Below are positions 3,922 through 60,404 of a stretch of DNA of 64,000 nucleotides, piece by piece. The stretch comes from Akkermansia massiliensis. Its GTDB lineage: Bacteria > Verrucomicrobiota > Verrucomicrobiia > Verrucomicrobiales > Akkermansiaceae. A model generated the notes under the pieces. It was not told the DNA's origin and did no database searches. It was given only the letters and a program-made list of their open reading frames with translations. Numbering within the stretch: the first letter of the stretch is position 1; each line of letters opens with the position of its first letter. Position numbers and translations under genes: made by a program. Where the stretch lies: positions 930,001-994,000 of the forward strand of contig NZ_JAMGSI010000002.1 of NCBI RefSeq assembly GCF_023516715.1, given 5' to 3'.

Positions 3922-5763
3922 ATGGCCCAACTCAAACACCCGAAGATGGTGGACATCAGAGACATTTTGGATGAGAATACGCGCCTTCCCGCCCTGGTGG
4001 CCGCGTCCGCCGAAAAGTTGCTGGGCCTGGAACGCTTGAACAAGGCGTACGACAAGATCGTGCGCGACAAGGAATCCGGTTCTCCGGAGAATTTCTTCCA
4101 GCTTGCTTCCAGACATTTGAACCTGAAGCTGCAACTGCGCCCGGGGGATCTGGAAAATATCCCCAAGAAAGGGCCGGTGGTCGTGGTCGCCAACCATCCG
4201 CACGGCCTGTCGGACGGCATCATGTTCGGAGAGCTGCTCACCCGCGTGAGGGAGGACGTCCGCATTCTGGCGAACGAACAGCTTTCCCTGTGCCAGGAGT
4301 TGGAACCCTGGCTGATCAAGGTGGACGTGTACGAGGATGAGAACGCCAAGCGCAAGAATCTCTCCGGCATGCGCAAGATGATCTCCTGGCTGCGGAAGGG
4401 CGGCGTGCTGGGCATTTTCCCCGCCGGCACGGCCTCCAGCTTTTCCCTGGCCCACAAGAGGGTGACGGACGATCCCTGGAACGCGAACATCGCCGCCATC
4501 ATCCGCATGACGAAGGCGACGGTGGTTCCCGTGCATTTTCCGGGGCGCAACAGTCTGCTGTTCCAGGGCGTTTCCCTCATCAACCGCAAGGCGCGCGTGG
4601 CTTTCCTTCCCCGTGAAGTGGGGCGTGACGGGCGCCGTACGCACCGCATCGTGGTGGGCAAGCCCATTCCGTTCAGCCAGCTTGGGCAGTATGATTCCGA
4701 TGAAGCCATGGTTTCCCATCTGCGCCTGCGCACCTACCTGCTGGGCAAGAGTTATGAAAAGAGCCGCCGTCCCCATGTGCACAGGAAGGACCGGAAGGCG
4801 AAGATGGCCGCACTGATTCCGCCCGTTTCCGTGCAGGACATGCAGGCGGAGATTGACGCACTGCCCGCGGAATGCCTGCATGCCCGCCAGGAGAACGGAG
4901 ACTGGGACGTGTACGTGGCGGACGCCCTGCAAATCCCCAATATCCTGATTGAAATAGGGCGCTTGAGGGAATACACCTTCCGCCAGGTGGGGGAGGGCTC
5001 CGGCAAGGCGTGCGACCTGGACACGTACGACAACCATTACAAGCACCTGTTCCTGTGGGACAGGACCCACCGGAAGATTGCAGGGGCCTACCGCATGGGG
5101 GAGACGGACAAGATCATCGCCCGCTACGGCGTGAAAGGGCTGTATAACGGGGAATATTTCTCCTTTACCCCCGCCGCCCTGAAGGTGCTGGACCGCTCCC
5201 TGGAAATGGGACGCGCCTTCATCGTGCCGGAATACCAGAAAAGGCCGCTGGCCCTCGGCTTCATCTGGGAGGGCATCGGCCAGTTCATGGCCCGCAACCA
5301 CCATTACCGCTACCTGTTCGGCACGGTAAGCATCTCCCGTGATTACACCAACCTTTCCCGTGCCCTCATCGTCTCCTACCTGAAGGCGCATGAAATGGAC
5401 TCCGTGCTGGTGCATGAGGTGAAAGCCTACAATCCGCCCCGCAAGGCGGACCTGAAAAGGTCGGAATCCTGTATCCTGCCCATTGGCCTGACGGACGCCC
5501 AGGGGCTCTCCCAGCTCGTGGCGGACATTGAGGAGGACGGCAAGGGAATTCCCGTGCTGCTGCGCCAGTACCTGAAGCTGAACGGAAAAATCCTGTCCTT
5601 CAGCGTGGACAAGCATTTCGGCGATGTGCTGGACTGCCTGATCCTGGTGGACATTTTCAAGTCTCCGGAGCGTTCCATCAAGCGCTACATGGGGAAGGAC
5701 ACGTACGAACAGCTGCTGCCCTATATGCAGCGGGAGAGGGAAGAGGAGAAGGCGGCGGAATAG
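3922..5763 (+). CDS. Fused lysophospholipid-type O-acyltransferase and GNAT N-acyltransferase, OlsF-like
   Basis: A 613-residue two-domain protein. The N-terminal third is a PlsC-like acyltransferase: NHPHGLSD with His92 and Asp98, the FPAGTASS block near residues 168-175, and the PVHFPG strand. The C-terminal part (about 330-570) looks like the hemolysin-type GNAT domain of N-acyltransferases such as OlsB, with GAYRMGETD, YFSFTPAALKVLDRSLEMGRAFI, and the FGTVSISRDYTNLSRALI region. In OlsF enzymes (Serratia, Flavobacterium) the same order of domains makes a diacylated amino acid (ornithine) lipid in one protein: the C-terminal half N-acylates the amino acid and the N-terminal half O-acylates the product. 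By inference this gene makes an aminolipid such as an ornithine or glycine lipid. It is a single gene, divergent from cmk. The head-group amino acid is unknown. Confidence 0.8.
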   Translation: MAQLKHPKMVDIRDILDENTRLPALVAASAEKLLGLERLNKAYDKIVRDKESGSPENFFQLASRHLNLKLQLRPGDLENIPKKGPVVVVANHPHGLSDGIMFGELLTRVREDVRILANEQLSLCQELEPWLIKVDVYEDENAKRKNLSGMRKMISWLRKGGVLGIFPAGTASSFSLAHKRVTDDPWNANIAAIIRMTKATVVPVHFPGRNSLLFQGVSLINRKARVAFLPREVGRDGRRTHRIVVGKPIPFSQLGQYDSDEAMVSHLRLRTYLLGKSYEKSRRPHVHRKDRKAKMAALIPPVSVQDMQAEIDALPAECLHARQENGDWDVYVADALQIPNILIEIGRLREYTFRQVGEGSGKACDLDTYDNHYKHLFLWDRTHRKIAGAYRMGETDKIIARYGVKGLYNGEYFSFTPAALKVLDRSLEMGRAFIVPEYQKRPLALGFIWEGIGQFMARNHHYRYLFGTVSISRDYTNLSRALIVSYLKAHEMDSVLVHEVKAYNPPRKADLKRSESCILPIGLTDAQGLSQLVADIEEDGKGIPVLLRQYLKLNGKILSFSVDKHFGDVLDCLILVDIFKSPERSIKRYMGKDTYEQLLPYMQREREEEKAAE

Positions 5764-5813
5764 TTCCGCAGGCGTTTTTTGCCGGTTTCCGGTCCGGTTT
5801 TTCCCTTATCCGG

Positions 5814-6710
5814 CTAGTTGAAATGCCTGTAGCCTGACGGAAGGGCGGAGGAGGGTTCCGTCGTCATTTCCCCGATAACGGTGAAGGGCGTTTCCGGGAA
5901 ATGCTCCGCGGCCAGCCGGGCAACCCGCTCCCGGTCGCCGGGACGGAACGTGACCAGCAGCTCGTAATCCTCCCCGTCTCCTGCGGCCTGCGCCGCGGTG
6001 AAGCCCGGGCGCACGGGAAGGAGTTCTGCATGAATGCGGAATCCCAGTCCGGAGGCCGCGGCCAGCCGTGGAAGGTCGGTTCCCAGACCGTCGGAAAGGT
6101 CCATCATGGCGGTGGCCAAGCCGGAGGCGGCCAGTACGCCGCCCTCCCTGACCCGTGGAATGAAGGAAAGATGGTGCCCCGTGGGAAAGCTGCCGCCGAG
6201 CACGCCCGTGACGGCGAGCAGGTCTCCCGCGCGCGCCGTGCTGCGCAGGACGGCTTTCCCTTCCGCAACCTCTCCGGTGAGGGCCACGCTGATGATGAGG
6301 CCGTCTTCCGGCAGTCCGGAGCTTTCCCCTCCGGCAATGCTGATGCCGAATTGCCGTGCCAGCCGTCCCATTCCCCGGTAAATTCCTTCCACCTGGGAGA
6401 CGGGGCGGTCCGCATGCACGAACAGGGTCACCAGCGCGTGAAGCGGTGTGCCGCCCATGGCCGCTATGTCTGAGACGGCCCTAGCCAGCGCCTTCCTGCC
6501 GATCAGTTCGGGATCCGTTCCAGGCAGGAAGTGCATGCCTTCCACCACGCAGTCCGTTTTCAGGAGCAATTGACGGTTTCCGGAGCTCCGGGTCACGGCG
6601 CAATCGTCCCCCGGTCCCGTGACCAGGAAGGCGTTGGAGGGCATCAGGGGCAGGAGCCGGGCCACCAGCGCGTCCTCCCCCGTCTGCCGGATGGTGGGAT
6701 CAGGTTCCAT
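5814..6710 (-). CDS. thiL: Thiamine-monophosphate kinase
   Basis: ATP-dependent kinase that makes thiamine pyrophosphate from thiamine monophosphate, the last step of cofactor synthesis. The 298-residue protein carries the AIRS/ThiL-family motifs: TGPGDDCAV near residues 31-39, LKTDCVVEGMHF, the GGxPLHALVTL block after the DIAAMG helix, IAGGESS, and MDLSDGLGTDLPRLA around 205-220. GDGEDYELLVTF closes the C-terminal domain. The ATG at 6710 lies 11 nt inside the end of the CPBP gene on the same strand, so the two are probably translationally coupled. Longer open frame upstream is only the overlap with the CPBP gene. Identification is firm. Confidence 0.94.
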   Translation of the reverse strand: MEPDPTIRQTGEDALVARLLPLMPSNAFLVTGPGDDCAVTRSSGNRQLLLKTDCVVEGMHFLPGTDPELIGRKALARAVSDIAAMGGTPLHALVTLFVHADRPVSQVEGIYRGMGRLARQFGISIAGGESSGLPEDGLIISVALTGEVAEGKAVLRSTARAGDLLAVTGVLGGSFPTGHHLSFIPRVREGGVLAASGLATAMMDLSDGLGTDLPRLAAASGLGFRIHAELLPVRPGFTAAQAAGDGEDYELLVTFRPGDRERVARLAAEHFPETPFTVIGEMTTEPSSALPSGYRHFN

Positions 6711-7563
6711 AGGGAAGGAGAACGCCGGGATACAGGATGTTGATGAGAGTGGCGGTGTTAAAAATGCAGTGGGCGATGATGGGCGTCCAGATGGAGCCCG
6801 TGTATTCGTACAGCAGCACCAGCATGGCCCCGAAGATTGCCAGCGGAATGAAGGGCACCAGGCTGACGTGGATGATGCCGAAGAGCAGGGACGTGGTGAC
6901 CAGCGCAAACCAGGCGCCCGTGTACTTTTTCATGATTGGGTACAGGTAGCCGCGGAAGATGAGTTCCTCCACCAGCGGGGCCGCGATGGCGGCGCTGAAG
7001 CAGATGACCACAACCAGGGGAATATCGCTGGAATGCCGCAGCACGGAGACGATGGACTGCTCCGCCGGAGCGTGCGTGACCTGTTCAATCCACTGGAACA
7101 GGCCCGCCCTGTCCAGCAGGAAGTGGATGACCAGCACCAGCAGATAGCCCGCCACGGGGGCATAAAGAAGGGCTTTCAGGGAATGTTTTTTCAGCCCTAG
7201 CGCCTCCATTCTGCCTGTGTGGAACATGCGCACCAGCAGGACGAAGGCCAGGATGAGGTTCAGGCAGGTGCCGTTGAAAATCTTGTAGCCGTCCAGCTCC
7301 ATGTTTGTAGTGGTGGGCGGAGCGGAGGCTCCCGGAGGCGTGGCCGCAGCCATCAGGGCGCCCAGGCTGAAGTACAGGACGATGATGCCGCACATGGCGA
7401 TGTCCAGCATGTCCAGATGGTCCACGGGGATGTGCCATTTCAGGGGGCGCTGGATGTTCGGCGCATGGGCCTGGCGGAAGATGCCCACCGCCACGGCGAT
7501 GAACATGACGGCAATCAGGGCGGAGGAGAACAGGGTAATAAGCTGGTCCGTTAATTCATTCAT
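6700..7563 (-). CDS. CPBP family intramembrane metalloprotease
   Basis: Polytopic membrane protein of the CAAX protease / bacteriocin-processing (CPBP, Abi) family. The 287 residues contain about eight hydrophobic segments. The three family motifs are present: EELIFRG (EExxxR, residues about 199-205), FGIIH (FxxxH, about 226-230) and HCIFN (HxxxN, about 263-267). Together these form the proposed metal and catalytic site. The start at 7563 was chosen because the hydrophobic N-terminus begins there; upstream codons encode a non-conserved arginine-rich stretch. Its end overlaps thiL by 11 nt, though no functional link is known. Many bacterial CPBP proteins have no known substrate, and this is one of them. 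Confidence 0.85.
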   Translation of the reverse strand: MNELTDQLITLFSSALIAVMFIAVAVGIFRQAHAPNIQRPLKWHIPVDHLDMLDIAMCGIIVLYFSLGALMAAATPPGASAPPTTTNMELDGYKIFNGTCLNLILAFVLLVRMFHTGRMEALGLKKHSLKALLYAPVAGYLLVLVIHFLLDRAGLFQWIEQVTHAPAEQSIVSVLRHSSDIPLVVVICFSAAIAAPLVEELIFRGYLYPIMKKYTGAWFALVTTSLLFGIIHVSLVPFIPLAIFGAMLVLLYEYTGSIWTPIIAHCIFNTATLINILYPGVLLPYGT

Positions 7564-7763
7564 GAAACAGGTATGCGTGGAATAGGCCGCCCTTCCGGAG
7601 CGCCACGCCGGAATAAGGACACCTGCTTCTTTAGTGAAAACACGGTGATTTTCCAGCAGAAAGTGAGCTATCGCCCCGTACTCCGCAAAAAAAATCATGA
7701 AGGAAGGGAATGAATACTTTTCAAAGAAAAGCGGGTATGCTACATTTCCAACGGATTATTGCC

Positions 7764-9164
7764 ATGAATATTCAACCCAAAATCACGCCTGTGCTGGACC
7801 CCGGCTTCGTGCCGGCCGTTCTTTGGAATCAAGCCTTTGAGGCCAAAGCCGCCGCCGATCCCGCTTCTCATCAAGTGGACATCGCTCTGACCCGCAATGA
7901 CGGGACCTGCTTCCGCTGGTCCGGCAAGCTCCTTCCCCACACCGGAGAAAACGTTGCCCTGAATGAGACCTATGTGGAACGCATCGTGAAATTCCTGCTG
8001 TGGCAGAAGGGCGGCAATATCATCCTCGTCGCCGGGGATGACGCTATTGCGGACATGCTGGCCTCCCGCTACTGCAAGGGCGGCGCCCGCGAATTCGACT
8101 GGGATTTCATCGGCAAGAAGATTTACGGCTCCCCCATTGAAGTGAAGAAGGTGTCCGTGGAAGAACTGCCTGAGGAATATTCCGGCTCCATGACCCTGGG
8201 CCGCAACCTGGACGGCTACCGCATCGGCTTCGACCTGGGCGGTTCCGACCGCAAATGCGCCGCCGTGGTGAACGGAGAAGTGGTGTATTCCGAAGAAGTG
8301 GTGTATTCCGAAGAAGTGGTCTGGGACCCCTATTTCCAGAAGGATCCCCAGTACCACATTGAAGGCATCCAGGACTCCCTGGAACGCGCCGCAGCCCACC
8401 TTCCGCGGGTGGACGCCATCGGCGGTTCCTCCGCCGGCGTCATCATCAACAGCGAGGTGCGCACCTCCTCCCTGTTCCGCGGCGTCAGCCAGGAAGACAT
8501 TGAAAAGACCCTCGGCAAGGTGTTCCGCACCCTCCAGAAGGAAAAGTGGAACAACATCCCCTTTGAAGTGGTGAACGACGGTGAAGTCACCGCCCTCGCC
8601 GGAGCCATGGGCATGAACGACAACGCCGTGCTCGGCGTAGCCATGGGCACATCCGAAGCCGCCGGCTACGTGGACCCGGAAGGCCACATCAAGCCCTGGC
8701 TGAATGAACTGGCCTTCGCTCCCGTGGATTACTCGGAAGAAGGCGGCGTGGACGAATGGTCCAAGGACATGGGCGTAGGCGCCCTCTACTTCTCCCAGCA
8801 GGCCGTAGCCCGTCTGGCTCCCCGCGCCGGCTTCCAGTTTGAAGGCATGCCCTTCCCGGAACAGCTCAAAAAGGTTCAGGCCGCCATGGCGGAAGGCGAC
8901 GAACGCGCCCGCAAGATTTATGAAACCATCGGCGTGCACTTCGGCTATGCCATTGCCCACTACGCCAGGTTCTATGATATCCGCAACCTGCTCTTCCTGG
9001 GCCGTGTGGCTTCCGGAGACGGCGGCCAGATCATCATTGACAAGGCGGAGGAAGTGCTGCGCACCGAATTCCCCGAGCTGAAGATCCAGCTCCGCGTGCC
9101 GGATGAAAAGACCAAGCGCCACGGCCAGGCCGTAGCCGCCGCTTCCCTGCCGGCCCTCTCCTGA
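7764..9164 (+). CDS. ROK family protein (sugar kinase-like) with N-terminal extension
   Basis: A 466-residue protein with an ASKHA ATP-binding fold of the ROK type. The phosphate-1 loop is at about 156-164 (FDLGGSDRK), a VDAIGGSSAG strand follows, and NDGEVTALAGAMG near residue 270 holds the Asp expected to act as catalytic base in ROK kinases. GVAMGTSEAAGYVDPEG follows. The classical ROK zinc motif (HxxxGCxCGxxGCxE) is not visible. About 150 residues precede the fold, which is longer than usual ROK kinases of roughly 300 residues; that part has no family I recognise. An 18-bp in-frame tandem duplication sits at 8280-8315. The start at 7764 is preferred over 7710 because the sequence before it is low-quality. 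Sugar kinase or sensor are both possible. Confidence 0.78.
   Translation: MNIQPKITPVLDPGFVPAVLWNQAFEAKAAADPASHQVDIALTRNDGTCFRWSGKLLPHTGENVALNETYVERIVKFLLWQKGGNIILVAGDDAIADMLASRYCKGGAREFDWDFIGKKIYGSPIEVKKVSVEELPEEYSGSMTLGRNLDGYRIGFDLGGSDRKCAAVVNGEVVYSEEVVYSEEVVWDPYFQKDPQYHIEGIQDSLERAAAHLPRVDAIGGSSAGVIINSEVRTSSLFRGVSQEDIEKTLGKVFRTLQKEKWNNIPFEVVNDGEVTALAGAMGMNDNAVLGVAMGTSEAAGYVDPEGHIKPWLNELAFAPVDYSEEGGVDEWSKDMGVGALYFSQQAVARLAPRAGFQFEGMPFPEQLKKVQAAMAEGDERARKIYETIGVHFGYAIAHYARFYDIRNLLFLGRVASGDGGQIIIDKAEEVLRTEFPELKIQLRVPDEKTKRHGQAVAAASLPALS
8280..8315 (+). repeat. 18-bp in-frame tandem duplication inside the ROK gene
   Basis: The unit GTGGTGTATTCCGAAGAA occurs twice without mismatch (8280-8297 and 8298-8315), and a third partial GTGGT follows. 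It adds six residues (VVYSEE) to a beta-hairpin just after the phosphate-1 loop. It could expand or contract by slippage without breaking the frame. Confidence 0.9.
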
Positions 9165-29942: not shown

Positions 29943-31445
29943 TCAGTTCAGTTTAACGGTGGTTGCAGTCGTGGCCGCCTGGGTGGCGGCTGCGGGAGCG
30001 GCTGCGGCAGGGGCCTTTTTCTCTTCCGTGGATTTTCCCAGGAAGGAGGGCAGTTCCAGCCCCACGCTCTTGCCGAGCTCGTGGAGAGGCAGGGTGTCTT
30101 TCACCAGATTCTGCACGAATCCGCCCACGGAGGAATCCCCTCCGTTGCCCATGACGACTACCTTGTCAAATTTCAGGCCCTTGATGGCGCCGGACTGGAG
30201 TTCCACGATCTTGGTGAGCTGTTCGGTAATCAGGAGGCTGGAAGCGGCGTCGGACGAGCCTGCCGCCTGTACGATCTGCTGGAAGCCGCGGGCCTTGCCT
30301 TCCAGTACGGCTTCAATGGCGGCGGCTTCACCGCGGCCCACCATTTCCATGCCTTCCCCTTCCGCCTTTTTCTTCAGAAGGGTGGCCTGGGCTTCGCCTT
30401 CCGCCAGTTGCCGGATGGCTTCCGCTTCCGCCCTGCGCTGGATGAGCAGGGCCTGCGCCTTGCCTTCCTGTTCCAGCTTGAGCACTTCCGCCGTGGCCTG
30501 GGCCTGCACTTCGCGCTGGCTCTTTTCAATGCGGGCCGTCACCAGGATGTTGGCCTCCTGCGTGGCGCGTTCGCGTTCGGCGCGCTTTATTTCCGCTTCC
30601 TTTTCCGCCTCGTAGGCTTCTTCCAGGGTCTTGGCTTCCTGCACCTTCTGGGCCACTTCCGCCAGCTTCTTGGCCTCCGCCTGCTTCACCTGCAGCTTGG
30701 CGGCGGATTCCGCAATCTTGATCTGGGCTTCGTTCTGGCCCTCAATGGCAATGGCGCGGGCGTTCGCCACCTGGACGGTCTGGTCCTTTTCCGCTTCCGC
30801 CTTGCCGATTTCCCCGCGGCGCGTTTCTTCCGCCACCTTGATGGTGGCGTCATTGATGGCGCGCGCGGCTGCTTCCTTGCCCAGGGCGCTGATGTAGCCG
30901 GAGGCGTCCTGAATGTCCGTGATATTGGCGTTAATGAGGTGGAGGCCCACCTTGTGCAGCTCCACGTCCACGCCTTCCGTAATGCCCTTGATGAGTTTTT
31001 CGCGGTCGGAGTTGATTTCCTCAATGGTCATGGAGGCGATCACCACGCGCATCTGGCCCATGATGATTTCCGCAGCCAGGTTGCGGATTTCCTCCCGGGA
31101 GCGGCCCAGCAGGCGCGCGGCGGCGTTCTGCATGATTTCCGGCAGGGTGGAGATGCCCACGATGAAGGAGGAGGGGACGTCCACGCGGATGTTCTGGGAG
31201 GAGAGGGCGCCCTGGAGGGGCACGTCAATGTTGATGGGGTTCAGGTCCAGGTAGCTGTAGGACTGGAGGACCGGAAGCACGAAGGTGGAACCGCCGTGGT
31301 AGCATTTGGCGGGCTGGCCCGTGCCCACCTTGCCGAAGACGATGAGGATTTTGTCCGGCGGGCACATGCGGTAGCGGCTGAACAGCCAGGAGGCCGTCAG
31401 GATGATGAAGAGAACCAGAATGGCGATAGGGATGATTTGGTCCAT
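29943..31445 (-). CDS. Flotillin-like SPFH-domain protein
   Basis: A 500-residue membrane scaffold protein. It has an N-terminal helix (residues 5-24), then an SPFH/band-7 domain (about 30-200, with ILIVFGKVG, the GGSTFVLPVLQSYSYLDL strand and DVELHKVGLHLINANITDI). A long Ala/Glu/Lys-rich coiled coil (about 200-400) and the C-terminal flotillin region follow (GFQQIVQAAGSSDAASSLLITEQLTKIVELQSGAI). The last 35 residues are an Ala/Pro/Thr-rich tail. Flotillins form large cage- or raft-like assemblies that organise membrane lipids and proteins. Upstream lies its usual NfeD partner, 34 nt away, and downstream the DUF4126 gene. Identification is firm; what it scaffolds here is unknown. Confidence 0.92.
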   Translation of the reverse strand: MDQIIPIAILVLFIILTASWLFSRYRMCPPDKILIVFGKVGTGQPAKCYHGGSTFVLPVLQSYSYLDLNPINIDVPLQGALSSQNIRVDVPSSFIVGISTLPEIMQNAAARLLGRSREEIRNLAAEIIMGQMRVVIASMTIEEINSDREKLIKGITEGVDVELHKVGLHLINANITDIQDASGYISALGKEAAARAINDATIKVAEETRRGEIGKAEAEKDQTVQVANARAIAIEGQNEAQIKIAESAAKLQVKQAEAKKLAEVAQKVQEAKTLEEAYEAEKEAEIKRAERERATQEANILVTARIEKSQREVQAQATAEVLKLEQEGKAQALLIQRRAEAEAIRQLAEGEAQATLLKKKAEGEGMEMVGRGEAAAIEAVLEGKARGFQQIVQAAGSSDAASSLLITEQLTKIVELQSGAIKGLKFDKVVVMGNGGDSSVGGFVQNLVKDTLPLHELGKSVGLELPSFLGKSTEEKKAPAAAAPAAATQAATTATTVKLN

Positions 31446-31479
31446 GGTATTGGATGGGGTGTATGGTTGGGTTTATTGG

Positions 31480-32013
31480 TTAATGAAGAGGTTTGACGGT
31501 GACGACGCCTGCCGTGACGGCGACTACTTCCACCGGGGTTCCTGCGGGCAGGGATTCCTCCCCTTCCTGAACGGCGGGGAGGTACAGAAGCTGGCTGGGA
31601 TGGGCGATCGTCACCTGTCCGCCGCGTTCAAGCCTGCCGGGAATGCTGATGTAAACGGTGCCGTGCATGCCCTTGAGGGTTTCATAGTTCAGGGTGCCGT
31701 CTGATTTGAGGCTCATGATGAAGCGCATGGAGATGCCGATGATCAGGAACATCAGCACGCCGGTGAAGAAGGCCGCTGCCAGGGAGGCGGCCATTCCCCA
31801 GCCCAGGCCCTGGGCGAGCACGCCGCCCCAGCCGAAGCCCAGGAAGAAGCCGATGCCGGATTTAATGGACAGCAGGCCCACGTCCGCGCCGCCGGCGTCC
31901 GCGTCAAAGTCCAGGTCATGTTCCCCCAGCCCGAACAGGGACAGGAGAAACAGAAGCGCTCCCACGCCCGTCGCGGCCACGGCGATGATGAAGAAAATGG
32001 AGTAATCAGTCAT
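31480..32013 (-). CDS. NfeD-like membrane protein, flotillin partner
   Basis: A 177-residue protein with an N-terminal hydrophobic hairpin (residues 5-27), an acidic loop (EHDLDFDADAGGAD), two more membrane helices (about 50-100), and a C-terminal OB-fold-like NfeD domain (GMHGTVYISIPGRLERGGQVTIA...AGTPVEVVAVTAGVVTVKPL). It is the short NfeD1b-type protein without the ClpP-like protease domain. Such proteins are encoded next to flotillins and interact with them. It is first in the NfeD-flotillin-DUF4126 run. The promoter should lie in the 80 nt before it, which holds no obvious box. Confidence 0.87.
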   Translation of the reverse strand: MTDYSIFFIIAVAATGVGALLFLLSLFGLGEHDLDFDADAGGADVGLLSIKSGIGFFLGFGWGGVLAQGLGWGMAASLAAAFFTGVLMFLIIGISMRFIMSLKSDGTLNYETLKGMHGTVYISIPGRLERGGQVTIAHPSQLLYLPAVQEGEESLPAGTPVEVVAVTAGVVTVKPLH

Positions 32014-32094
32014 AGGGTAGATTGATTGCCGGGAGTATCCATGTTTGGAGCCCGCTTGTCTATGGAAAAAGGAACGGCGGCCGGATATTCCGGC

Positions 32095-35000
32095 CTATTT
32101 CATTTCCACCACGGCTTTTTCCCCCTTCTTGAGCTCCAGTTCCCGGAGCAGGAGGAAGTCGTTGGTCAGCAGGCCGGCCTTCTCCACGGGAGTGGCGGTT
32201 TCTCCAATGGTGACGGTGGCCTTTTTGGCGGTGATCCTGTTGGGGAACCAGACGCCCAGGCGCGCCTTGGCGTCCTTGTTGGCCGTGACGGTGAAGCCCT
32301 TGGCGGCGTCCGCGGGGTCGTTCCACTCAATATGCCACGGGGACGGAGCGCGGGATTCGTCCAGGCGCGCCGTCCAGGCGGGATCCCCGTAAAAAGCCAC
32401 GGTATCCCGGTCATGGATGAGGCCCATCTGGTCCTTGCCCATGCCGTAGCCGGCGGAGTTCATGCCCTTGGCAAAGTCCGGGTCGTCCTTGATGCCGTTG
32501 ATGTCCGGCGCGTTAAAGTTGACGTTCATGAGCTTGGGGAAGCGGGTCATGGTTTCGTCCAGAATGAACTGGTTGTTCAGGTACCAGGCTTCCGCCAGGC
32601 TGGAGGCGTCATGGTTGCTGAACAGGAGTCCCAGCGTTCCCCAGCCGCCCTTGCCGTACCAGGAGGGGACGGTGTAGCCCACCAGCTGGTTGAAGCCGTA
32701 GTGGCTCAGGGCGGTGACGGCCATGGAATTCTTCGTTTTTTTAGTATCCCCTACCAGGCAGTTCCCCGCGGCTACCCAGACGGCGGGAACCGGCTTGATT
32801 TCAATCTCCGGAGCCTTGATTCTCTCAAGGAAGGAGAGCAGGTCGTCCTCCTTCCCGTTGAAGATCGCGCCGCGCAGGAAGGTGGTGAATTCCTTGAACT
32901 GCTTTTTGTCCAGCACGTGGAACCGGTTGTTGCCGGAGACGATGATCCCCTTGCCGAAAGGCATTTCCAGATTGAACTGGGTGGCGTGGGAGGCCGTGAC
33001 GAAGAGCTGGGGAGCGTAAAGTTCCCAGTATTCCACGAGCTTGGGCGTCACGCCCAGCGTGGTTTCATCCCCGCGGTCCTGTTCCTTCAGGCCCTTCACG
33101 TAAAAAGCGGGCGTTACCTTGCCCTTGGAATTGTGCTGTTCCAGGTACTGGAAGGGCTGCCAGTCCGTGATGCTCATGCTGTCGGTGAAACGGGAGGCGT
33201 CCACGTTGGTGGTTCCCATGGAGCGGCTGATCACGAGCGGCTGCGTTTCAGAGGCTATCCTCATGGCGTCCTGCGGGGTGTAGCCCGTGACGATGCCCCA
33301 GATGCAGTCCCCGTACGGGTCGTCGTCCAGGCGGCGGGTCAGGCGGTGCAGGTCATTGACCAGCACCCGGTCTATTTCCTCCGGTCGCGCGACCACGGCC
33401 ATGAAGCGGGGAGCCATTTTCTTGAGCGTGTCCAGCTTGGCGAACATGGAGTCCTTCACGGTGACGATGGAGCCTCCGTGCTTTTCAGCCAGCTTGTCCG
33501 CCACGGCCTTCCATTCCGGCATGGCGGCGGTTTCCTCGGAGATGATGATGGCGTAGTCATTCTTGCCGGAGTCTTTTTTTATGGTTTTCACGGCAGTGGC
33601 GTGAATGCAAAAAGCCGCCGTGGAGACGGCGGCCTGGGTGGCATCGGGTTTGTCCGCCTGCTTTTCAGCAGGCGGAGCTTCCGCGGCCGGATGGTCCGGC
33701 AGGATGTTCAGGTTGAGATGTTCTCCCTTGCCGAAGATGTCTTTGGCAAGCTTGTTGACCTCTTCCACGGTGATGGCTTTCACGTCCGGAATGCTTTCCC
33801 TCTGCTGGGCCAGCCGTTCCGGTTTGGCCTGGGAATCCCTCAGCACGGAGGTCCAGTAGCCGTTGTCGCGCTGGGCGCGGTCCATGGAGTTGAGAATGGG
33901 GTTGCGGGCGCGGTCCAGTTCCTCCTGGGTGACGTTCCCCTTGCCGAGGTCGTCCGCAATCCTGGCAATCGCATTCCGCACGGCATCCTTGTTGCGCATC
34001 ACGCCGGAGCTGAGGGTGATGATGTAGCCGTCGTCCGGGTAGGTTTCACTGATGTTGAGCCCGGTGGAGGGGGAGTAGGTTTCCCCCATGTCTTCGCGCA
34101 GGCCCTTGAACACGCGGTCATAGAAGACGGCCTTGAGCATGTTCAGCCTGCGGGCCAGCTTCTTGTCTTCTCCGCCGGGCGTTTTCCAGAAGAGGCAGAC
34201 CAGCGTCTTGTCAATGGAGGAATCATAGGTCAGGTCCTTGGAGAAGTTGAAGTCCGCCATGGCAGGGTGGCGCAGTTTTTCATCCAGCTTCGCAGGGGCG
34301 TCCGCACGTTTGGGCACCGCGCCTACGGTGCGTTCCAGCAGGGGAATGATGTCTTCCGTCTTGAAGTCCCCCGTGACGGTCACTTCCATGTAATTGTTCT
34401 TCAGGGGGGCGTCCACCCAGTCCTGCACGTCCTTGACCTCATAGGAAGCCAGTTGTTCCTGCGCGGGGAAGGTGAAGCGGGGATTGTTCTTGTACAGGAT
34501 GGCGGGCACCTGCATCTTCATGGCTCCCTGAACCTCATGGTTCAGCTTGTTGTAAAGCATGGGGATGGCGCGGCGGAGCAGGGTGACGCCGTCCTGGCGG
34601 TAGCCGGGGTACATCAGGTAGGCCGTCTGGAGCTGGAGCTGCGTTTCCAGGTCTTCCTTGCTGGTATTTCCGGAGAGCAGGAAGGAGCGGTCCGTCATGG
34701 AGAAGCCCACGCCGACTTTCTTGCCTGCCATGATGGCGGCCAGTTCGTCGTTGGAGTGGTCCTTCAAGCCGCCGCCGTTCATCACGGCGCCCGCAAAGAG
34801 TTCCAGCCCGGAGGCTTTTTCCGGCCTGCTCAGTTCCCCGCCGTCCACGGCAAAGGTGATGTTGATGGAATCCTTGTCGAACTCCGTGGGCTTCAGGTTG
34901 ACGCGCACGCCGTTGGAAAGGGTGAGCTGGGTGACTCCCAGGTCAGCGGCTTCCGCGCGGGCCGTCACCTTGCCGGGTTCCCCGAATTTGTAGGAGAAGT

Positions 35001-36525
35001 CCTTCCGGCTGTCCGCCTGGTAGGGCTCCACCTTGGAGGCCCGGGCGTCCTGGTACGTCTTCATGATTTCAGCGCTTCCCTGGGCGTTTTCCTTGTTGGA
35101 GGTGACGATCACGCGGGGGAAGGCTCCGGTCCAGGCTTCCTTCAGAGCGGCCTGGCATTGTTCGGGCGTCAGGTTTTCCACGACTTCCCTGGAGATGGCC
35201 CAGTCTTCCTGCGGCGTGGTGAAGACCTTGTCCTGCGCGGCGCTCTGGGCGATGGCGGAGGCCACGTCTTCCGACTTGACGGTGGGCCAGGACTTGATGG
35301 CGTTTTCCGCGGCGGCAGTGATGTTGCTGCGGGCTTCCGCCAGCTCCTCCTTGTTGAAGCCGAATTCGATGGCCCGGCGCAGCTCCTGTTCAATGGCGGT
35401 CAGGGCCGGCTTCCAGTTCTTGTAGTCCGCCTGGGTCTGGATGGCGTCCACTTGCGCCGCTTCCATCACGTCCATGCGTCCGCCTTCCGCGGAAATGAAG
35501 GGGCAGTCCGCATTCTTCGCCATCTTTTCCAGACGGCGGTTCAGCATGGCGTAAGCCACGTTGAGGGGAATGTCCTCGTTGCGGTTGGCGACCGTGTCCG
35601 GCTTCTTCACGTAGGGACGGGCGATGTTGACGCTGACTTCCGTGCTGGTGGCCTCCTTGTTGGTGATCCAGTGGGCGGTGGTTTCCGTGGCCGTCTTGAG
35701 CGCGCCCCGGTCCGTCTGGAAGGAGTAATTGTCCTTCTTCATGGAGCCGAAGTATTTTTCCACCCAGGCCTTGCCCTGTTCCGGCGTGATGTCTCCGGCG
35801 ATGACGAGCTGCATCTGGCTGGGGACGTAATGGGTCTGATAGTAGTTTACAAATTTTTCCCGCGGCGCGGTACGGATTACTTCCAGCGTGCCGATGGGGT
35901 AGCGGTCGGGAATCCTGGTGCCGTCAAGCATGATGGAGAAGACCTCCTTCATGACCCGGTAGCCGGCGGAATCCCGCGCCTTGTATTCACTGGTGATGAT
36001 GCCGCGTTCCGCGTCAATGGCGCTTTCCTCCAGCAGGGCGCCGTCCGCAAAATCCCTCATGATGGTGAAGGCCAGGTTCACGGTGGACTCCTTCATGCTG
36101 GGCACGTCCATCATGTACACGGTTTCGTCAAAGGCGGTGTAGGCGTTCGCGTCCCCGCCCAGGCCCAGGCCTTCCTTCTGCATGGCGGGAATCATTTCCC
36201 CGCGCTTGAAATGCGTGCTTCCGTTGAAAACCATGTGTTCCAGGAAGTGGGAGATGCCCTGGATGTCGTCCGTTTCATTCAGGGAACCCGTATTGACGCG
36301 CAGGCGGATGCTGAACCGGCCCTTGGGCTCTGCGTTCGGGCGGATGAAGTAGGTCAGCCCGTTGGGGAGCTTTCCCTTGATAAGCCGGGGATCCTGCTTG
36401 GGAATGCCTGCCGCCGGTTGGACAGCGGCGGCCTGGGTCTTGTTTTCTGCTGCGGCTTCGGCCAGCGAATGGGCCGGGAGTAGGCACGCGGCAGCCAGAA
36501 TGGAGGTGATGGTAAATGCCTTCAT
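32095..36525 (-). CDS. Secreted M16 zinc protease fused to a caspase-fold (C25-like) domain
   Basis: A 1476-residue exported protein with a signal peptide at 1-22. The M16 (insulinase/pitrilysin) part has the zinc motif HFLEH (His93, Glu96, His97) with third ligand Glu173, and a second, inactive M16 half (about 520-940). After about residue 970 comes a domain unrelated to M16. It has alternating beta/alpha pattern with SHATQ near 1177 and a hydrophobic strand ending in AAGNCLVGD near 1253. This resembles the His and Cys positions of the gingipain/C25 caspase fold. The extreme C-terminus (about 1395-1476) is a small beta domain as found after C25 proteases. The protein is probably periplasmic or surface-exposed and degrades peptides. 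The M16 call is firm; the C25-like call is by motif pattern only. Confidence 0.85.
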   Translation of the reverse strand: MKAFTITSILAAACLLPAHSLAEAAAENKTQAAAVQPAAGIPKQDPRLIKGKLPNGLTYFIRPNAEPKGRFSIRLRVNTGSLNETDDIQGISHFLEHMVFNGSTHFKRGEMIPAMQKEGLGLGGDANAYTAFDETVYMMDVPSMKESTVNLAFTIMRDFADGALLEESAIDAERGIITSEYKARDSAGYRVMKEVFSIMLDGTRIPDRYPIGTLEVIRTAPREKFVNYYQTHYVPSQMQLVIAGDITPEQGKAWVEKYFGSMKKDNYSFQTDRGALKTATETTAHWITNKEATSTEVSVNIARPYVKKPDTVANRNEDIPLNVAYAMLNRRLEKMAKNADCPFISAEGGRMDVMEAAQVDAIQTQADYKNWKPALTAIEQELRRAIEFGFNKEELAEARSNITAAAENAIKSWPTVKSEDVASAIAQSAAQDKVFTTPQEDWAISREVVENLTPEQCQAALKEAWTGAFPRVIVTSNKENAQGSAEIMKTYQDARASKVEPYQADSRKDFSYKFGEPGKVTARAEAADLGVTQLTLSNGVRVNLKPTEFDKDSINITFAVDGGELSRPEKASGLELFAGAVMNGGGLKDHSNDELAAIMAGKKVGVGFSMTDRSFLLSGNTSKEDLETQLQLQTAYLMYPGYRQDGVTLLRRAIPMLYNKLNHEVQGAMKMQVPAILYKNNPRFTFPAQEQLASYEVKDVQDWVDAPLKNNYMEVTVTGDFKTEDIIPLLERTVGAVPKRADAPAKLDEKLRHPAMADFNFSKDLTYDSSIDKTLVCLFWKTPGGEDKKLARRLNMLKAVFYDRVFKGLREDMGETYSPSTGLNISETYPDDGYIITLSSGVMRNKDAVRNAIARIADDLGKGNVTQEELDRARNPILNSMDRAQRDNGYWTSVLRDSQAKPERLAQQRESIPDVKAITVEEVNKLAKDIFGKGEHLNLNILPDHPAAEAPPAEKQADKPDATQAAVSTAAFCIHATAVKTIKKDSGKNDYAIIISEETAAMPEWKAVADKLAEKHGGSIVTVKDSMFAKLDTLKKMAPRFMAVVARPEEIDRVLVNDLHRLTRRLDDDPYGDCIWGIVTGYTPQDAMRIASETQPLVISRSMGTTNVDASRFTDSMSITDWQPFQYLEQHNSKGKVTPAFYVKGLKEQDRGDETTLGVTPKLVEYWELYAPQLFVTASHATQFNLEMPFGKGIIVSGNNRFHVLDKKQFKEFTTFLRGAIFNGKEDDLLSFLERIKAPEIEIKPVPAVWVAAGNCLVGDTKKTKNSMAVTALSHYGFNQLVGYTVPSWYGKGGWGTLGLLFSNHDASSLAEAWYLNNQFILDETMTRFPKLMNVNFNAPDINGIKDDPDFAKGMNSAGYGMGKDQMGLIHDRDTVAFYGDPAWTARLDESRAPSPWHIEWNDPADAAKGFTVTANKDAKARLGVWFPNRITAKKATVTIGETATPVEKAGLLTNDFLLLRELELKKGEKAVVEMK

Positions 36526-36632: not shown

Positions 36633-37838
36633 TCAAAAGGATGAGGAAGGCATCCATTCATCCCGCGGGCGCGGCTCTGAAATTCCGCAGATGCGGTCCA
36701 CGCAGCGCTCCCACGCCTCCCGGCCCTGGTAGATCTCCACCTCAATGCGCAGGAAGTAAATGGGAACCTCCGGGTCTTCCTCCGGTTTTTCCAGCCGCAC
36801 GGCGTCCTTCTCCGTGGTCACGATCATGTCCATGGCCCGGTCCGCGCAGCGGTCGTAGAACTCCTGCAATTCCGCTTGTTCAAACCAGTGGTGGTCCGGG
36901 AACCTGCGGCAGATTTCCACGTGGGCGCCCAGGGAGCGCAGGGAATCTTCAAAGCTTTCCGGGCGCGCGATGCCGCTGAGGCACGCCACCCATTTCCCCT
37001 GGAGGGCCTCCAGGGGAAGCCGTTCCCCCGTGAACACGTTTTCTAGGTACCGGGGGCCGTGGTCGCTCACGATGATGTCCGCCACGGGATTGTACTTCCT
37101 GATGGCGGCGATCAGATCATCCTGGGGCTTGCCGCCGCATTTGGTCAGAACGATGTAGCTGGCGCGCGCCAGGCTGCCCCTGGGCTCCCGCAGGGTGCCG
37201 CGCGGGAGCATGGCCCCGGTGCCGAAGGGCGCGCCGCAGTCCACCAGCACGATGTCCAGTTCATGAGCCAGTTTCAGGTATTGCATGCCGTCGTCCAGCA
37301 GCAGGGTGTCGCACCCCAGGTGTTCAATGGCGAAGATGCCGGACTTGATGCGGTTCTTGTCCACCAGAACCGCCACGCCGTCCAGGTTCTTGGCAAGCAT
37401 GAAGGGTTCGTCTCCGGAATGCAGGGGGCCCAGGTAGCGCGTTTCCCCGTCGCTGGCGATCTTGGGCAGGTTTTCCGGCTGGCGGCCGTCCTTGTCCTTC
37501 CACTCCTGGGGCTTGTCCAGGTCCGCGCTCTTGTAGCCGCGGGTCAGGATGGCTACCTTGCGGCCGCGCTGGGTGAGGGTGCGGGCCAGCAGTTCCACCA
37601 CCGGAGTCTTTCCGGTGCCCCCCACGGTGATGTTCCCCACGCTGACCACCAGCGTTCCCAGCCTGGCCTGCTTCGCGATGCTGGAGTGGAACAGGTACAG
37701 CCGCGCCAGCACCACCAGCCTGAACAGCCAGGAGGCCCCGCGCAGGACCATGCGCATCATGGAGGCGCGGAACCCCTTGGCCCGGCCGAAGATGACTTCC
37801 GTCCCCCACTCTTCAAACTCTTCCGATCTGGATTTCAT
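36633..37838 (-). CDS. lpxK: Tetraacyldisaccharide 4'-kinase
   Basis: Inner-membrane kinase that phosphorylates the 4' position of the lipid A precursor, giving lipid IVA. The 401-residue protein has an N-terminal membrane helix (about 30-50), then the P-loop within [14 protein letters not shown] near residues 66-79 and the TRGYKS motif. Further on are [24 protein letters not shown] and [18 protein letters not shown], all typical of LpxK. Its presence shows that the organism makes lipid A and so has an outer membrane with lipopolysaccharide. A zinc-ribbon protein gene lies 31 nt upstream on the same strand and is probably co-transcribed. Identification is firm. Confidence 0.95.
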
Positions 37839-53383: not shown

Positions 53384-54955
53384 TTATTCGGCATGGTTTT
53401 CTTCTGCCCACTTCCTGTACTGTGCGGACAGTTGTTCAATAAGCGGCTGGTGCCTGGAAGCGAGGTTTTTTTGTTCCGTCCTGTCCCTGATGTCGTATAC
53501 CTGCCAGGGGCCGCGGTTGGGAGCCACCAGTTTGAATTGGCTGGTCAGGGCCGCGCGGTTCCTCTGGTGCTCCCAGAAAATGGTGCGGGAAGGGCAGGTG
53601 CCGGGAATGTAGTCCCATACCCTGGACGGAGGAAGCTTTCCGGGATTGGCCCAGTAGGCGTTGAGCGGTTTGCCGTCCATGTGGACGGGAACCGGAAGCT
53701 GCGCCCACGCCAGGCAGGTGGGGGCGAGATCCTGAAGCAGGAAGGGGGAGTGATAGCGCGCGCCGGGACGGATTCTGGAAGGGTAGCGGATGATGAAAGG
53801 CGCGGACAAGCCGCCGTCAAAGGTCTCAATCTTATACTGGCGGTAGGGGGTGTTGGACACGGCCGCCCACATGGGGCCGTACCCGTCCCGGCAGCCGGCT
53901 TCCCCCAGCGGACCGATGGGAAGAACGGTTTTCTTGTTCCTGTTGTTCTGGGGCATTTCCGCCGTTGCGCCGTTGTCTGACAGGAACATGACGATCGTGT
54001 TGCCGCTGAGGCGGTGGCGGTCCAGGGACGCAAGGATGCGGCCTATGCCGCGGTCCATGATGGAGATTTGGGCGGCGTAGGTGGCCATGCACCTGGAAAG
54101 GTAGTCCTTACGCTCTGCTGTGGCCTTTTCATAGCCGGAAGGATTGAATTTTCCGGCCATGCCCAGCTTGGCGGAGGGAGGGACGATTCCGAGCTGTTTT
54201 TGTTTTTCCAGCCTCTTGGAGGCGATGGCATGCGGAGATTTTCCGCGGTAGGACGGCAGCATTTTTTCTATTTCCTCCCGGGGGGCCTGAAGGGGGGTGT
54301 GCGGGGCCGTGTAAGCCACGTAGAGGAAGAAGGGTTTTTTGCTTTTGGCGGCGTCGTCAATGTAGGCCAGGGCCGTTTGGGTGATGTCTTCCGTCATGTA
54401 GAAATCCTCCGGCAGGTCCTCCGGCCGGAGCAATTTTCCGTCTTCTCCGAAGGGGCGGTCCGGCATGGGCTTGTAGTAATCCGCCGCGCCTCCCAGCAGG
54501 CCGCGGGAACGGTCGAAGCCGCGGTCCCAGGGGTAGGTTCCGCGGACTTTCCCCAGATGCCATTTTCCGGAAAGGTAGGTACGGTATCCCGCTTTTTTCA
54601 GGAGTTCAGGGAGGGTGGGGATATCCGGATTCAGCCGCCCGCGGTAGCCGGGGCGTCCGCTGTCGTCGTCCAGCAGCCCTACATCCACCTTGTGGGGCTC
54701 GCAACCGGTCATGATGGAGGCGCGGGAGGGGGAGCAGCGGGAAGCCGTGTAGCACCGTGTAGCCAGCATGCCCTGTGCGGCGAGGGAGTCCAGATGGGGG
54801 GTGGGGATTTCCGAGCCGTAGCAGCCCAGGTCGGACCATCCCATGTCGTCAGCCAGGATGAGGACGATGTTGGGCTTGTCCGCCGGGGAGGGAACAGGGG
54901 AGAGCAGCCAGAGGGCCATGCAGGCCAGGAGGGGGAAACTTGGAATGAAACGCAT
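53384..54955 (-). CDS. Secreted sulfatase (alkaline phosphatase superfamily), CSPSR type
   Basis: A 523-residue exported sulfatase with a signal peptide (MRFIPSFPLLACMALWLLSPVPSPA). Metal-binding DD at residues 36-37 (ILADDMGWSDLGCYG) is followed by the modification motif CSPSRAS with Cys74, which needs conversion to formylglycine by a maturase. GKWHLG near 130 and NGATAEMPQ with LSDNGA near 340 complete the active-site set. In gut bacteria such enzymes remove sulfate from mucin or glycosaminoglycan sugars. The sugar and position specificity are not readable here. The start is set by the signal peptide. No maturase (anSME) gene is in this window. Confidence 0.92.
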   Translation of the reverse strand: MRFIPSFPLLACMALWLLSPVPSPADKPNIVLILADDMGWSDLGCYGSEIPTPHLDSLAAQGMLATRCYTASRCSPSRASIMTGCEPHKVDVGLLDDDSGRPGYRGRLNPDIPTLPELLKKAGYRTYLSGKWHLGKVRGTYPWDRGFDRSRGLLGGAADYYKPMPDRPFGEDGKLLRPEDLPEDFYMTEDITQTALAYIDDAAKSKKPFFLYVAYTAPHTPLQAPREEIEKMLPSYRGKSPHAIASKRLEKQKQLGIVPPSAKLGMAGKFNPSGYEKATAERKDYLSRCMATYAAQISIMDRGIGRILASLDRHRLSGNTIVMFLSDNGATAEMPQNNRNKKTVLPIGPLGEAGCRDGYGPMWAAVSNTPYRQYKIETFDGGLSAPFIIRYPSRIRPGARYHSPFLLQDLAPTCLAWAQLPVPVHMDGKPLNAYWANPGKLPPSRVWDYIPGTCPSRTIFWEHQRNRAALTSQFKLVAPNRGPWQVYDIRDRTEQKNLASRHQPLIEQLSAQYRKWAEENHAE

Positions 54956-58781: not shown

Positions 58782-60404
58782 TCAACCTGCAAAAGCAAGC
58801 GGCGGAAAAAGGGCGGTTTTCCGGGGTTGTTCCGGCTTTTGCCTGTCTTTTCTGGGGCTTCCCGCTTCCTTTCTGTAAATGGCCTGGAGCCTTTCCAACT
58901 GGTCTTTCCTTGTTTCCGCCAGATTGTGCCTTTCCTCCGGGTCGCTGCTGATTTGAAAAAGGAGCCACTTGTCCTGCTTGTGCGTGAGCTTCCAGCCGTC
59001 CCCCGTGATGACCGTGTGGTCCACCACTACGTAATCGCGCTGGCTGGAAGGTTTGCCGAAGAGCATGTTTTTATAGGAAACGGAATCCTTGCCTTCCGGC
59101 ATGCCCACTCCCGCCAGCTCGGCAAAGGTGGCCATATGGTCGTAGTTGGCTACCAGGCTGCGGCAAACCTTCCCGTGCGGCACGGTCCCGGGCCAGGAGA
59201 CGATGAGGGGAACGCGGATGCCCCCTTCATGGTTGGTCCATTTCAGCCCGGCCAGGTTGACCATGGCGTTCTTTTGGCCGATGAGCCCGCGGCTGCCGCG
59301 GAAAACGTCCAGCAGCTCCCCGGTGCCGTCCAGAACGCCGCCGTGGCAGTTGAGGCCGCGGCCCCGCTCCTTGTCCGTGCGGTAGTAAAGTTCATGCCCG
59401 TTGTCGGAGCTGAAAACGATGATGGTGCGCTTCTCCAGTCCCAGTTTGTGCACCTGGGCCAGGATGGCGCCCACCTGCCTGTCCAGCTTGTCCACCATGG
59501 AGGCGTATTCCTCCGCCGCCCCGGCGCATTCCCTGTTGCCGCCCGCGGCGCCCGCATAGGCCTGGCGGATGGCTGGATGACCGGCATACTTGTTCTCTGC
59601 GGGGGGAATATCCACCGGGCCGTGGGGCAGGTTGGTGGAGAAGAGGATGAACATGGGCCTGTTCCGGTTTTCCTCCATGAACTTGAGGGTCTCCGCCAGC
59701 ATGGCGTCCGGAGCGTACGTCACTTTTCCGTCCCGGTTTCCTCTCCGTTTTTCCGTGGCTCCCGGCCCGTAAATCTCCGGGGTCTTGCCGCCGTCGGCAT
59801 GCGTGTTGCCCGGAAGGGGAAGGCGTTCGCCGTCTTTCCAGAGGAAGGAGGGATAATAGCCGTGGGCCCGCTGATGGTCCATGTATCCCACGTAACGGTC
59901 CCATCCGTGCCTTTTCAGCTCTCCGTGCCAGGTGGTGAAGCCCCACTCCAGCTTTCCGAACTGGCCCGTGACGTATCCTGCCTTTTTCAGTAGTTCCGGA
60001 AGGAAAACCTCTCCCCCGGAAGGCTTGATGCGGGCCGCCCTGGCCGCTTTCTTTTCCAGTTCCTCGTTGGACCAGCCTTGTTGTTCCGCCGTGATGACCA
60101 GGCCGCCGTTTGTCTGGGTGTAGGAGCGGGAGTGGCTGTCATGCACGCCCATGAGCAGGGAGGCGCGCGCCGGGCAGCAGTATTGGCTGCTGTAGCACCG
60201 GGTGAACATGATGCCCTGTTTGGCCAGGCGGTCGATGTTGGGCGTTTTCACGATCTCCTGGCCGTAGCAGCCCAGCATGCCCATGCCCAGGTCATCCGCA
60301 TAAATCAGAATGATGTTGGGCCTGGAAGCGGCAGTGGCCGGGACCGGACAGAACGCCAGCGCTGAAACAACTGCCAGAAATGTGCATGAAATAAATCCCA
60401 TCAC
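58782..60404 (-). CDS. Secreted sulfatase (alkaline phosphatase superfamily), CCPAR type
   Basis: A 540-residue exported sulfatase with signal peptide MMGFISCTFLAVVSALAFCPVPATAA. Metal-binding DD is at residues 37-38 (IYADDLGMGMLGCYG), and the maturation motif CCPARAS (Cys76) has Ala instead of Ser at the third position, the form handled by anaerobic radical-SAM maturases. VFSSDNGHE near 335 and DPEERHNLAE near the C-terminus are family blocks. The usual GKWHLG loop reads GKLEWGF here, so the active-site histidine of that loop is missing or shifted. It lies just upstream of the rsmB-tpiA run. Probably it acts on a different sulfated sugar than the enzyme at 53384. Confidence 0.9.
   Translation of the reverse strand: MMGFISCTFLAVVSALAFCPVPATAASRPNIILIYADDLGMGMLGCYGQEIVKTPNIDRLAKQGIMFTRCYSSQYCCPARASLLMGVHDSHSRSYTQTNGGLVITAEQQGWSNEELEKKAARAARIKPSGGEVFLPELLKKAGYVTGQFGKLEWGFTTWHGELKRHGWDRYVGYMDHQRAHGYYPSFLWKDGERLPLPGNTHADGGKTPEIYGPGATEKRRGNRDGKVTYAPDAMLAETLKFMEENRNRPMFILFSTNLPHGPVDIPPAENKYAGHPAIRQAYAGAAGGNRECAGAAEEYASMVDKLDRQVGAILAQVHKLGLEKRTIIVFSSDNGHELYYRTDKERGRGLNCHGGVLDGTGELLDVFRGSRGLIGQKNAMVNLAGLKWTNHEGGIRVPLIVSWPGTVPHGKVCRSLVANYDHMATFAELAGVGMPEGKDSVSYKNMLFGKPSSQRDYVVVDHTVITGDGWKLTHKQDKWLLFQISSDPEERHNLAETRKDQLERLQAIYRKEAGSPRKDRQKPEQPRKTALFPPLAFAG

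Follow-up and report, generated by a model that had tools for sequence, protein, structure and literature searches.

Families C25, which holds the gingipains, and C14 both belong to peptidase clan CD. In gingipain R we take residues 211 and 244 to be the catalytic pair; the third catalytic acid is Glu152. PorU, a C25 relative that belongs to the type IX system, has a sortase-like or processing role. M16 enzymes, which are metallopeptidases, enclose unfolded or short chains. Akkermansia muciniphila is a much-studied mucus-living gut bacterium, and how it digests the protein component of mucus is only partially understood. According to the accessible parts of two reports, gingipains cleave proteins after Arg or Lys (PMC13271334) and a dockerin-bearing C25 peptidase occurs in another phylum (PMC8542988). 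Neither an M16-C25 fusion nor a C25 relative in Akkermansia is named in the literature searched, which took in few subscription papers and many sources only in part, and the portions of PMC6793856 and PMC12731061 within reach make no mention of Akkermansia, C25, a fusion or a cysteine protease.

Here we describe a gene in a 64,000-nucleotide stretch of Akkermansia DNA (the window; all positions are counted within it) from a genome of 3.28 Mb in 3 contigs. Residues from about 990 to 1476 of its product probably form a divergent gingipain-like cysteine peptidase followed by a beta domain, linked to a PqqL-type M16 enzyme in one exported two-protease polypeptide. An earlier note on this DNA had proposed that a single protein carries a metallo- and a cysteine-protease unit. 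Our comparisons support that proposal, since they confirm the M16 unit and profile alignments suggest that the second unit is C25-like. A conserved fusion of two proteases would be a testable candidate for mucus protein digestion; the Pfam and NCBIfam models applied here recognise only its M16 half. The family would also extend the gingipain group by Verrucomicrobiota members that these models miss.

Gene layout and the M16 half

The gene is a 1476-aa minus-strand frame whose Met start opens a signal-peptide-like stretch (Table 1), and the same frame remains open further upstream to an ATG at 36657 (1520 aa). A plus-strand frame of 1485 aa (32026-36483) lies open antisense to it, probably through codon bias; this frame was dropped as coding because the minus-strand product is clearly an M16 peptidase. 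Downstream of the fusion gene and on the same strand are NfeD-like and SPFH/flotillin-like genes (29943-32013, named by eye); of the 13 loci checked, only five (L031-L035) had them. The genome has 15 sulfatase matches, two of which fall within the window (53699-54874 and 59106-60320).

Table 1. Positions of the fusion gene and its parts within the window
Feature	Position	Strand	Basis
Whole gene, exported M16 - C25-like fusion protein (predicted), 1476 aa + stop	32095..36525	-	open frame, PDB and Pfam matches
Probable Sec signal peptide, residues 1-20, MKAFTITSILAAACLLPAHS	36466..36525	-	sequence by eye
M16 metallopeptidase, PqqL-like, residues 44-933	33727..36396	-	Pfam and PDB matches
Zinc motif HFLEH, residues 93-97	36235..36249	-	HxxEH in 37/37 M16 rows
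Glu173	36007..36009	-	Glu in 37/37 M16 rows
Ala/Pro-rich linker, residues 941-989	33559..33705	-	sequence
C25-like (clan CD) cysteine peptidase domain (predicted), residues 990-1386	32368..33558	-	profile-profile comparison, conservation
Proposed catalytic His1180 (in SHATQ)	32986..32988	-	conservation; aligned to C25 His
Proposed nucleophile Cys1256 (in AAGNC)	32758..32760	-	conservation; aligned to C25 Cys
GDP motif, residues 1380-1382, counterpart of the C25 C-terminal GDP	32380..32388	-	52/52 rows; profile register
C-terminal beta domain (predicted), residues 1395-1476	32098..32343	-	last part of AlphaFold2 model, pLDDT blocks 60-90

The first part of the protein is a two-part M16 peptidase, as Pfam and PDB matches confirmed, and it has the HFLEH motif and Glu173 named in the earlier note. 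PF00675 matches residues 64-188 (E 4.8e-25) and PF05193 matches in two stretches (E 5.5e-32). These domains, together with HxxEH and a downstream Glu, place the protein in family M16; Glu173 is presumably the third zinc ligand. PDB matches span about residues 42-933 and include the M16 peptidase 9ldy, PqqL (6ofs) and further chains labelled 'putative zinc protease', which we take to be FusC. Residues from about 42 to 930 align across nearly the whole of PqqL (E 1.6e-66), with the zinc motif in common. The solved PqqL chain (913 aa) stops at the M16 end, however, whereas the Akkermansia protein has 490 further residues that carry a second peptidase-like domain. We asked 38 M16 rows, near-copies included, for the zinc site; 37 could be aligned, and HxxEH with a downstream Glu was present in all 37, proteins without the cysteine of the second domain included. 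The one row that gave no match at E 1e-20 (L225) comes from a genome of the genus (G095) that is without the extra domain and has only a distant M16 (E 9.1e-11).

The extra domain is a Verrucomicrobiota family

Taken alone, the C-terminal segment of about 490 residues gave no Pfam match above cut-off, no NCBIfam match and no meaningful PDB match. A Pumilio entry in the PDB (E 0.004) was rejected as a chance match, with no stretch above 9.4 bits. A profile of the family searched against the PDB gave one irrelevant match, at E 1.5.

The domain is carried by 38 of the 59 genomes searched. Besides the source genome, these are 33 of 36 further genomes from the genus and 4 of 22 from elsewhere in the order. 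Among the 33 other carriers in the genus, 30 have it fused, in a frame of 1287-1558 aa; the exceptions are G006, G009 and G022. In G006 the fusion gene (L097) is broken into overlapping frames at 6096-8690 (865 aa) and 4276-6147 (624 aa), by a frameshift that may be real or may be an assembly error. Two genomes that are 84% and 76% complete (G007 and G034) have a long M16 frame without the extra domain. A wider search within the order found the domain in 48 of 189 genomes, 25 of them of the same genus, and within the phylum in 56 of 288. Members of the order outside the genus are free-standing frames of 457-562 aa, and the six free-standing proteins inspected have signal-like N-termini as judged by eye. 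The domain is thus a conserved family in Verrucomicrobiota that stands alone in other genera and is fused behind M16 in Akkermansia. Among viral contigs, 24 pattern matches included no relative, and a single plasmid query with one free-standing member gave no match.

The two parts can also be neighbours. At L036 an M16 protein (956 aa) and a C25-like protein (555 aa) are encoded by neighbouring genes, at L100 the corresponding frames are neighbouring and overlap, and in G148 the two lie about 0.7 Mb apart on one contig. Ten longer or divergent members (a non-random choice) were scanned for partner domains: four carry a transglutaminase-like domain, one a GH127 and five no Pfam domain above cut-off. 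The transglutaminase-like fusions are in one frame, with the family domain behind the partner in L102, L109 and L105 and before it in L111. In L103 (828-4670, a 1281-aa frame) it lies behind the GH127 catalytic and middle domains. On contig 40 of G261 (98150-101483) a match to C11, the clostripain-like family, ends about 1.2 kb before a family member (L177), so that two clan-CD-like genes adjoin.

Relation to the C25 peptidases

The family was compared with known peptidases as profiles. The family profile had 52 nonredundant rows, thinned at 80% best-segment identity with no coverage condition from 116 of 117 candidates (the window protein and 116 frames; one was too short). The C25 profile was built from 23 Verrucomicrobiota domains at loci matching PF01364 (23 of 30 loci), and the comparison profiles from 24 of 30 loci for C14, 9 of 11 for C11 and 14 of 15 for sulfatase, short or broken pieces being dropped. 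Searched against the PDB, the C25 profile found gingipain R (1cvr, E 3.7e-70), PorU (6za2, E 3e-37) and Lys-gingipain; a count along the alignment places the C25 His and Cys at residues 211 and 244 of gingipain R.

Aligned with hhalign, the family matched the C25 profile locally at 61% (P 7.9e-5) and globally at 92.8% (P 5.6e-8). A 17-row profile without rows from the Akkermansia-like half of the tree gave 47% (P 2e-4) and 96.7% (P 5.5e-10), respectively. None of 150 column-shuffled C25 profiles reached the observed score, locally or globally, and in the same mode the controls stayed low (sulfatase 0.9%, M16 0.5%, five reversed profiles at most 1.8%). As a yardstick, C25 against C14 scored 59% locally and 76% globally, and C25 against C11 34% locally. 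In the alignment His1180, Cys1256 and the GDP motif pair with the C25 His (23/23), Cys (23/23) and GDP. The motifs SHATQ and AAGNC singled out in the earlier note are present, with residue numbers off by three (1177 and 1253 had been given as approximate), and the view of them as a C25-type pair gains support from this pairing with the invariant C25 residues.

Conservation was high at these positions. His1180 is kept in 41 of 43 rows (the window protein, L001, and L044, cut by a contig end, are omitted from this count) and in 49 of the 52 nonredundant rows; for Cys1256 the counts are 37 of 43 and 46 of 52, and GDP is present in all 52. Because they are conserved across a phylum-wide family, these motifs are not chance. 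The His precedes the Cys and each follows a hydrophobic strand, as in FVTASHAT and VWVAAGNC (strands taken from the sequence), which is the clan CD arrangement.

At E <= 1, PF01364 failed to match the window domain, and likewise 12 of 12 members of set A3 and 10 of 10 further members; two family members gave no match even at E <= 10. Profile similarity to C14 (PF00656) was 0.7% locally and 0.1% globally, so that C14 was rejected as the nearest relative. C11 (PF03415) was also rejected. Its match is local only (13%, P 0.0022); that alignment sets the His and Cys stretches of the family on those of clostripain, and no global match was found. None of 150 shuffled C11 profiles did as well locally, and 36 of 150 scored as high globally.

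The C25 match is sensitive to how the profiles are built. With context-specific pseudocounts off it fell to 4.6% (P 0.0087; in another run, 5.9%, P 0.0064), level with C11 (5.2%, P 0.0075), while sulfatase, M16 and reversed controls lay at 0.0-1.8%. Masking the three motif stretches weakened the local match to P 0.0063 and abolished the global one. The His-then-Cys order in a C25 context is thus found by profile register and conservation and is weak without context pseudocounts. Homology beyond the motifs being weakly supported, clan CD is a safer assignment than C25 in particular. The alignment is also too uncertain in the stretch of the third catalytic acid of C25.

The family resembles C25 in the order of its elements, in a hydrophobic stretch before both His and Cys, in C-x2-G after the Cys and in the terminal GDP; many of its free-standing members also share GH-x5-W around the His with gingipain R. 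It differs in being missed by the Pfam model, in usually having HAT where C25 has HG, in GW and DRD motifs of its own, in the M16 fusion and, in Akkermansia, in a longer His-Cys spacing. We call the domain C25-like because it agrees with C25 in register and dyad but gives no PF01364 match; it is probably a divergent branch, or a sister family, in clan CD rather than a member of C25.

Gingipains combine a caspase-like core with an Ig-like domain. Structure prediction contributed little to this assignment. Both AlphaFold2 models were built from 7 close sequences (the window protein and L031-L036) and had low mean pLDDT values (46.8 and 43.9). An N-terminal beta-alpha-beta stretch was moderately confident, as were the final 82 residues of the first model, but nothing else; in this otherwise poor first model, residues 1395-1476 (pLDDT 60-90) suggest the beta domain that had been expected after the peptidase part. 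With the low-confidence core model Foldseek found no match at E <= 0.001, the top matches being receiver and flavodoxin-like folds. No gingipain was among the best 50 fold matches of either low-confidence model. Caspase-6 appeared in one fold list for a low-confidence model, at Z 6.2 and rank 42 among unrelated alpha/beta folds; most matches in that list fall on the beta domain.

The His and Cys motifs might instead sit in another fold, the profile match being a convergence of short motifs. The weakness of the match without context pseudocounts and after motif masking would fit this, as would AlphaFold2 models that are unusable. We nevertheless regard convergence as unlikely, given the His-then-Cys order, the full-length global alignment with its terminal GDP and the failure of all 150 shuffles.

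Proposed working of the fusion protein

We infer three-dimensional fold, export, peptidase activity, division of labour and substrate as follows. In the C25-like domain His1180 and Cys1256 would form the catalytic dyad. As an endopeptidase, the cysteine unit may nick larger proteins, and the M16 clam-shell would take up unfolded or short chains and finish the fragments. In Akkermansia the substrates might be mucus glycoproteins, a guess made because of the GH127 fusion and the mucus habitat.

A C25-like domain with a working dyad could also work on proteins that the cell itself exports, as a sortase-like or processing enzyme, rather than in digestion. PorU is matched by the same C25 profile, and the residue set of the family is unusually fixed (GW, DRD and GDP). 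Against this, no conserved partner system was seen beside the gene, the NfeD-like and SPFH genes being limited to the loci given above, and the fusion partners known for the domain act on peptides or glycans or are transglutaminase-like. A processing role therefore appears improbable beside the digestive one. Still less probable is a role in autoprocessing, with the domain cleaving the linker so that the M16 enzyme is released once exported, as has been proposed for caspase-like domains in some bacterial toxins (PMC3482391, in the part available): the domain does lie behind a linker in one polypeptide, and the two parts are already separate genes at L036 and L100, but most members outside the genus are free-standing and have nothing to release.

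A lineage without the proposed nucleophile

Six of the nonredundant rows are without the Cys, and all six are also without GW (1294-1295) and Asp1372; the other 46 all keep both. The three rows without the His are a subset of these six. On the tree the six form one clade (support 100/100) adjoining L007, which keeps the Cys. Cys, GW and Asp1372 were lost together in this one clade, with HxxEH kept in the M16 rows examined, so the parts of the cysteine unit decayed jointly in a single lineage that retained the M16 zinc motif.

That this clade of the genus still keeps the domain fused would suit a domain whose main role in the M16 enzyme is binding or structural rather than catalytic, yet for the family at large such a role is very doubtful, as His and Cys are both present in all 46 other rows, free-standing proteins included, and the loss is a single event on the tree. 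For the predicted cysteine peptidase the clade is a natural experiment, with Cys, GW and Asp1372 gone together and the zinc site kept.

A broader reading is plausible and stops short of being probable. The family, as a new clan-CD family, may serve in Verrucomicrobiota as an interchangeable exported cutting module, free-standing or fused to M16, transglutaminase-like or GH127 arabinofuranosidase partners, in single-chain machines that would degrade glycoproteins (gut mucins; plant or algal glycoproteins elsewhere). The Cys-less lineage would then be a secondary pseudo-peptidase clade whose cysteine unit now serves the M16 enzyme as a non-catalytic part.

Of the six named relatives found, three are recorded as Akkermansia muciniphila, one as Akkermansia sp. 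and two as Akkermansiaceae. Against five named relatives, dN/dS was 0.08-0.15 for the M16 part and 0.10-0.23 for the C25-like part.
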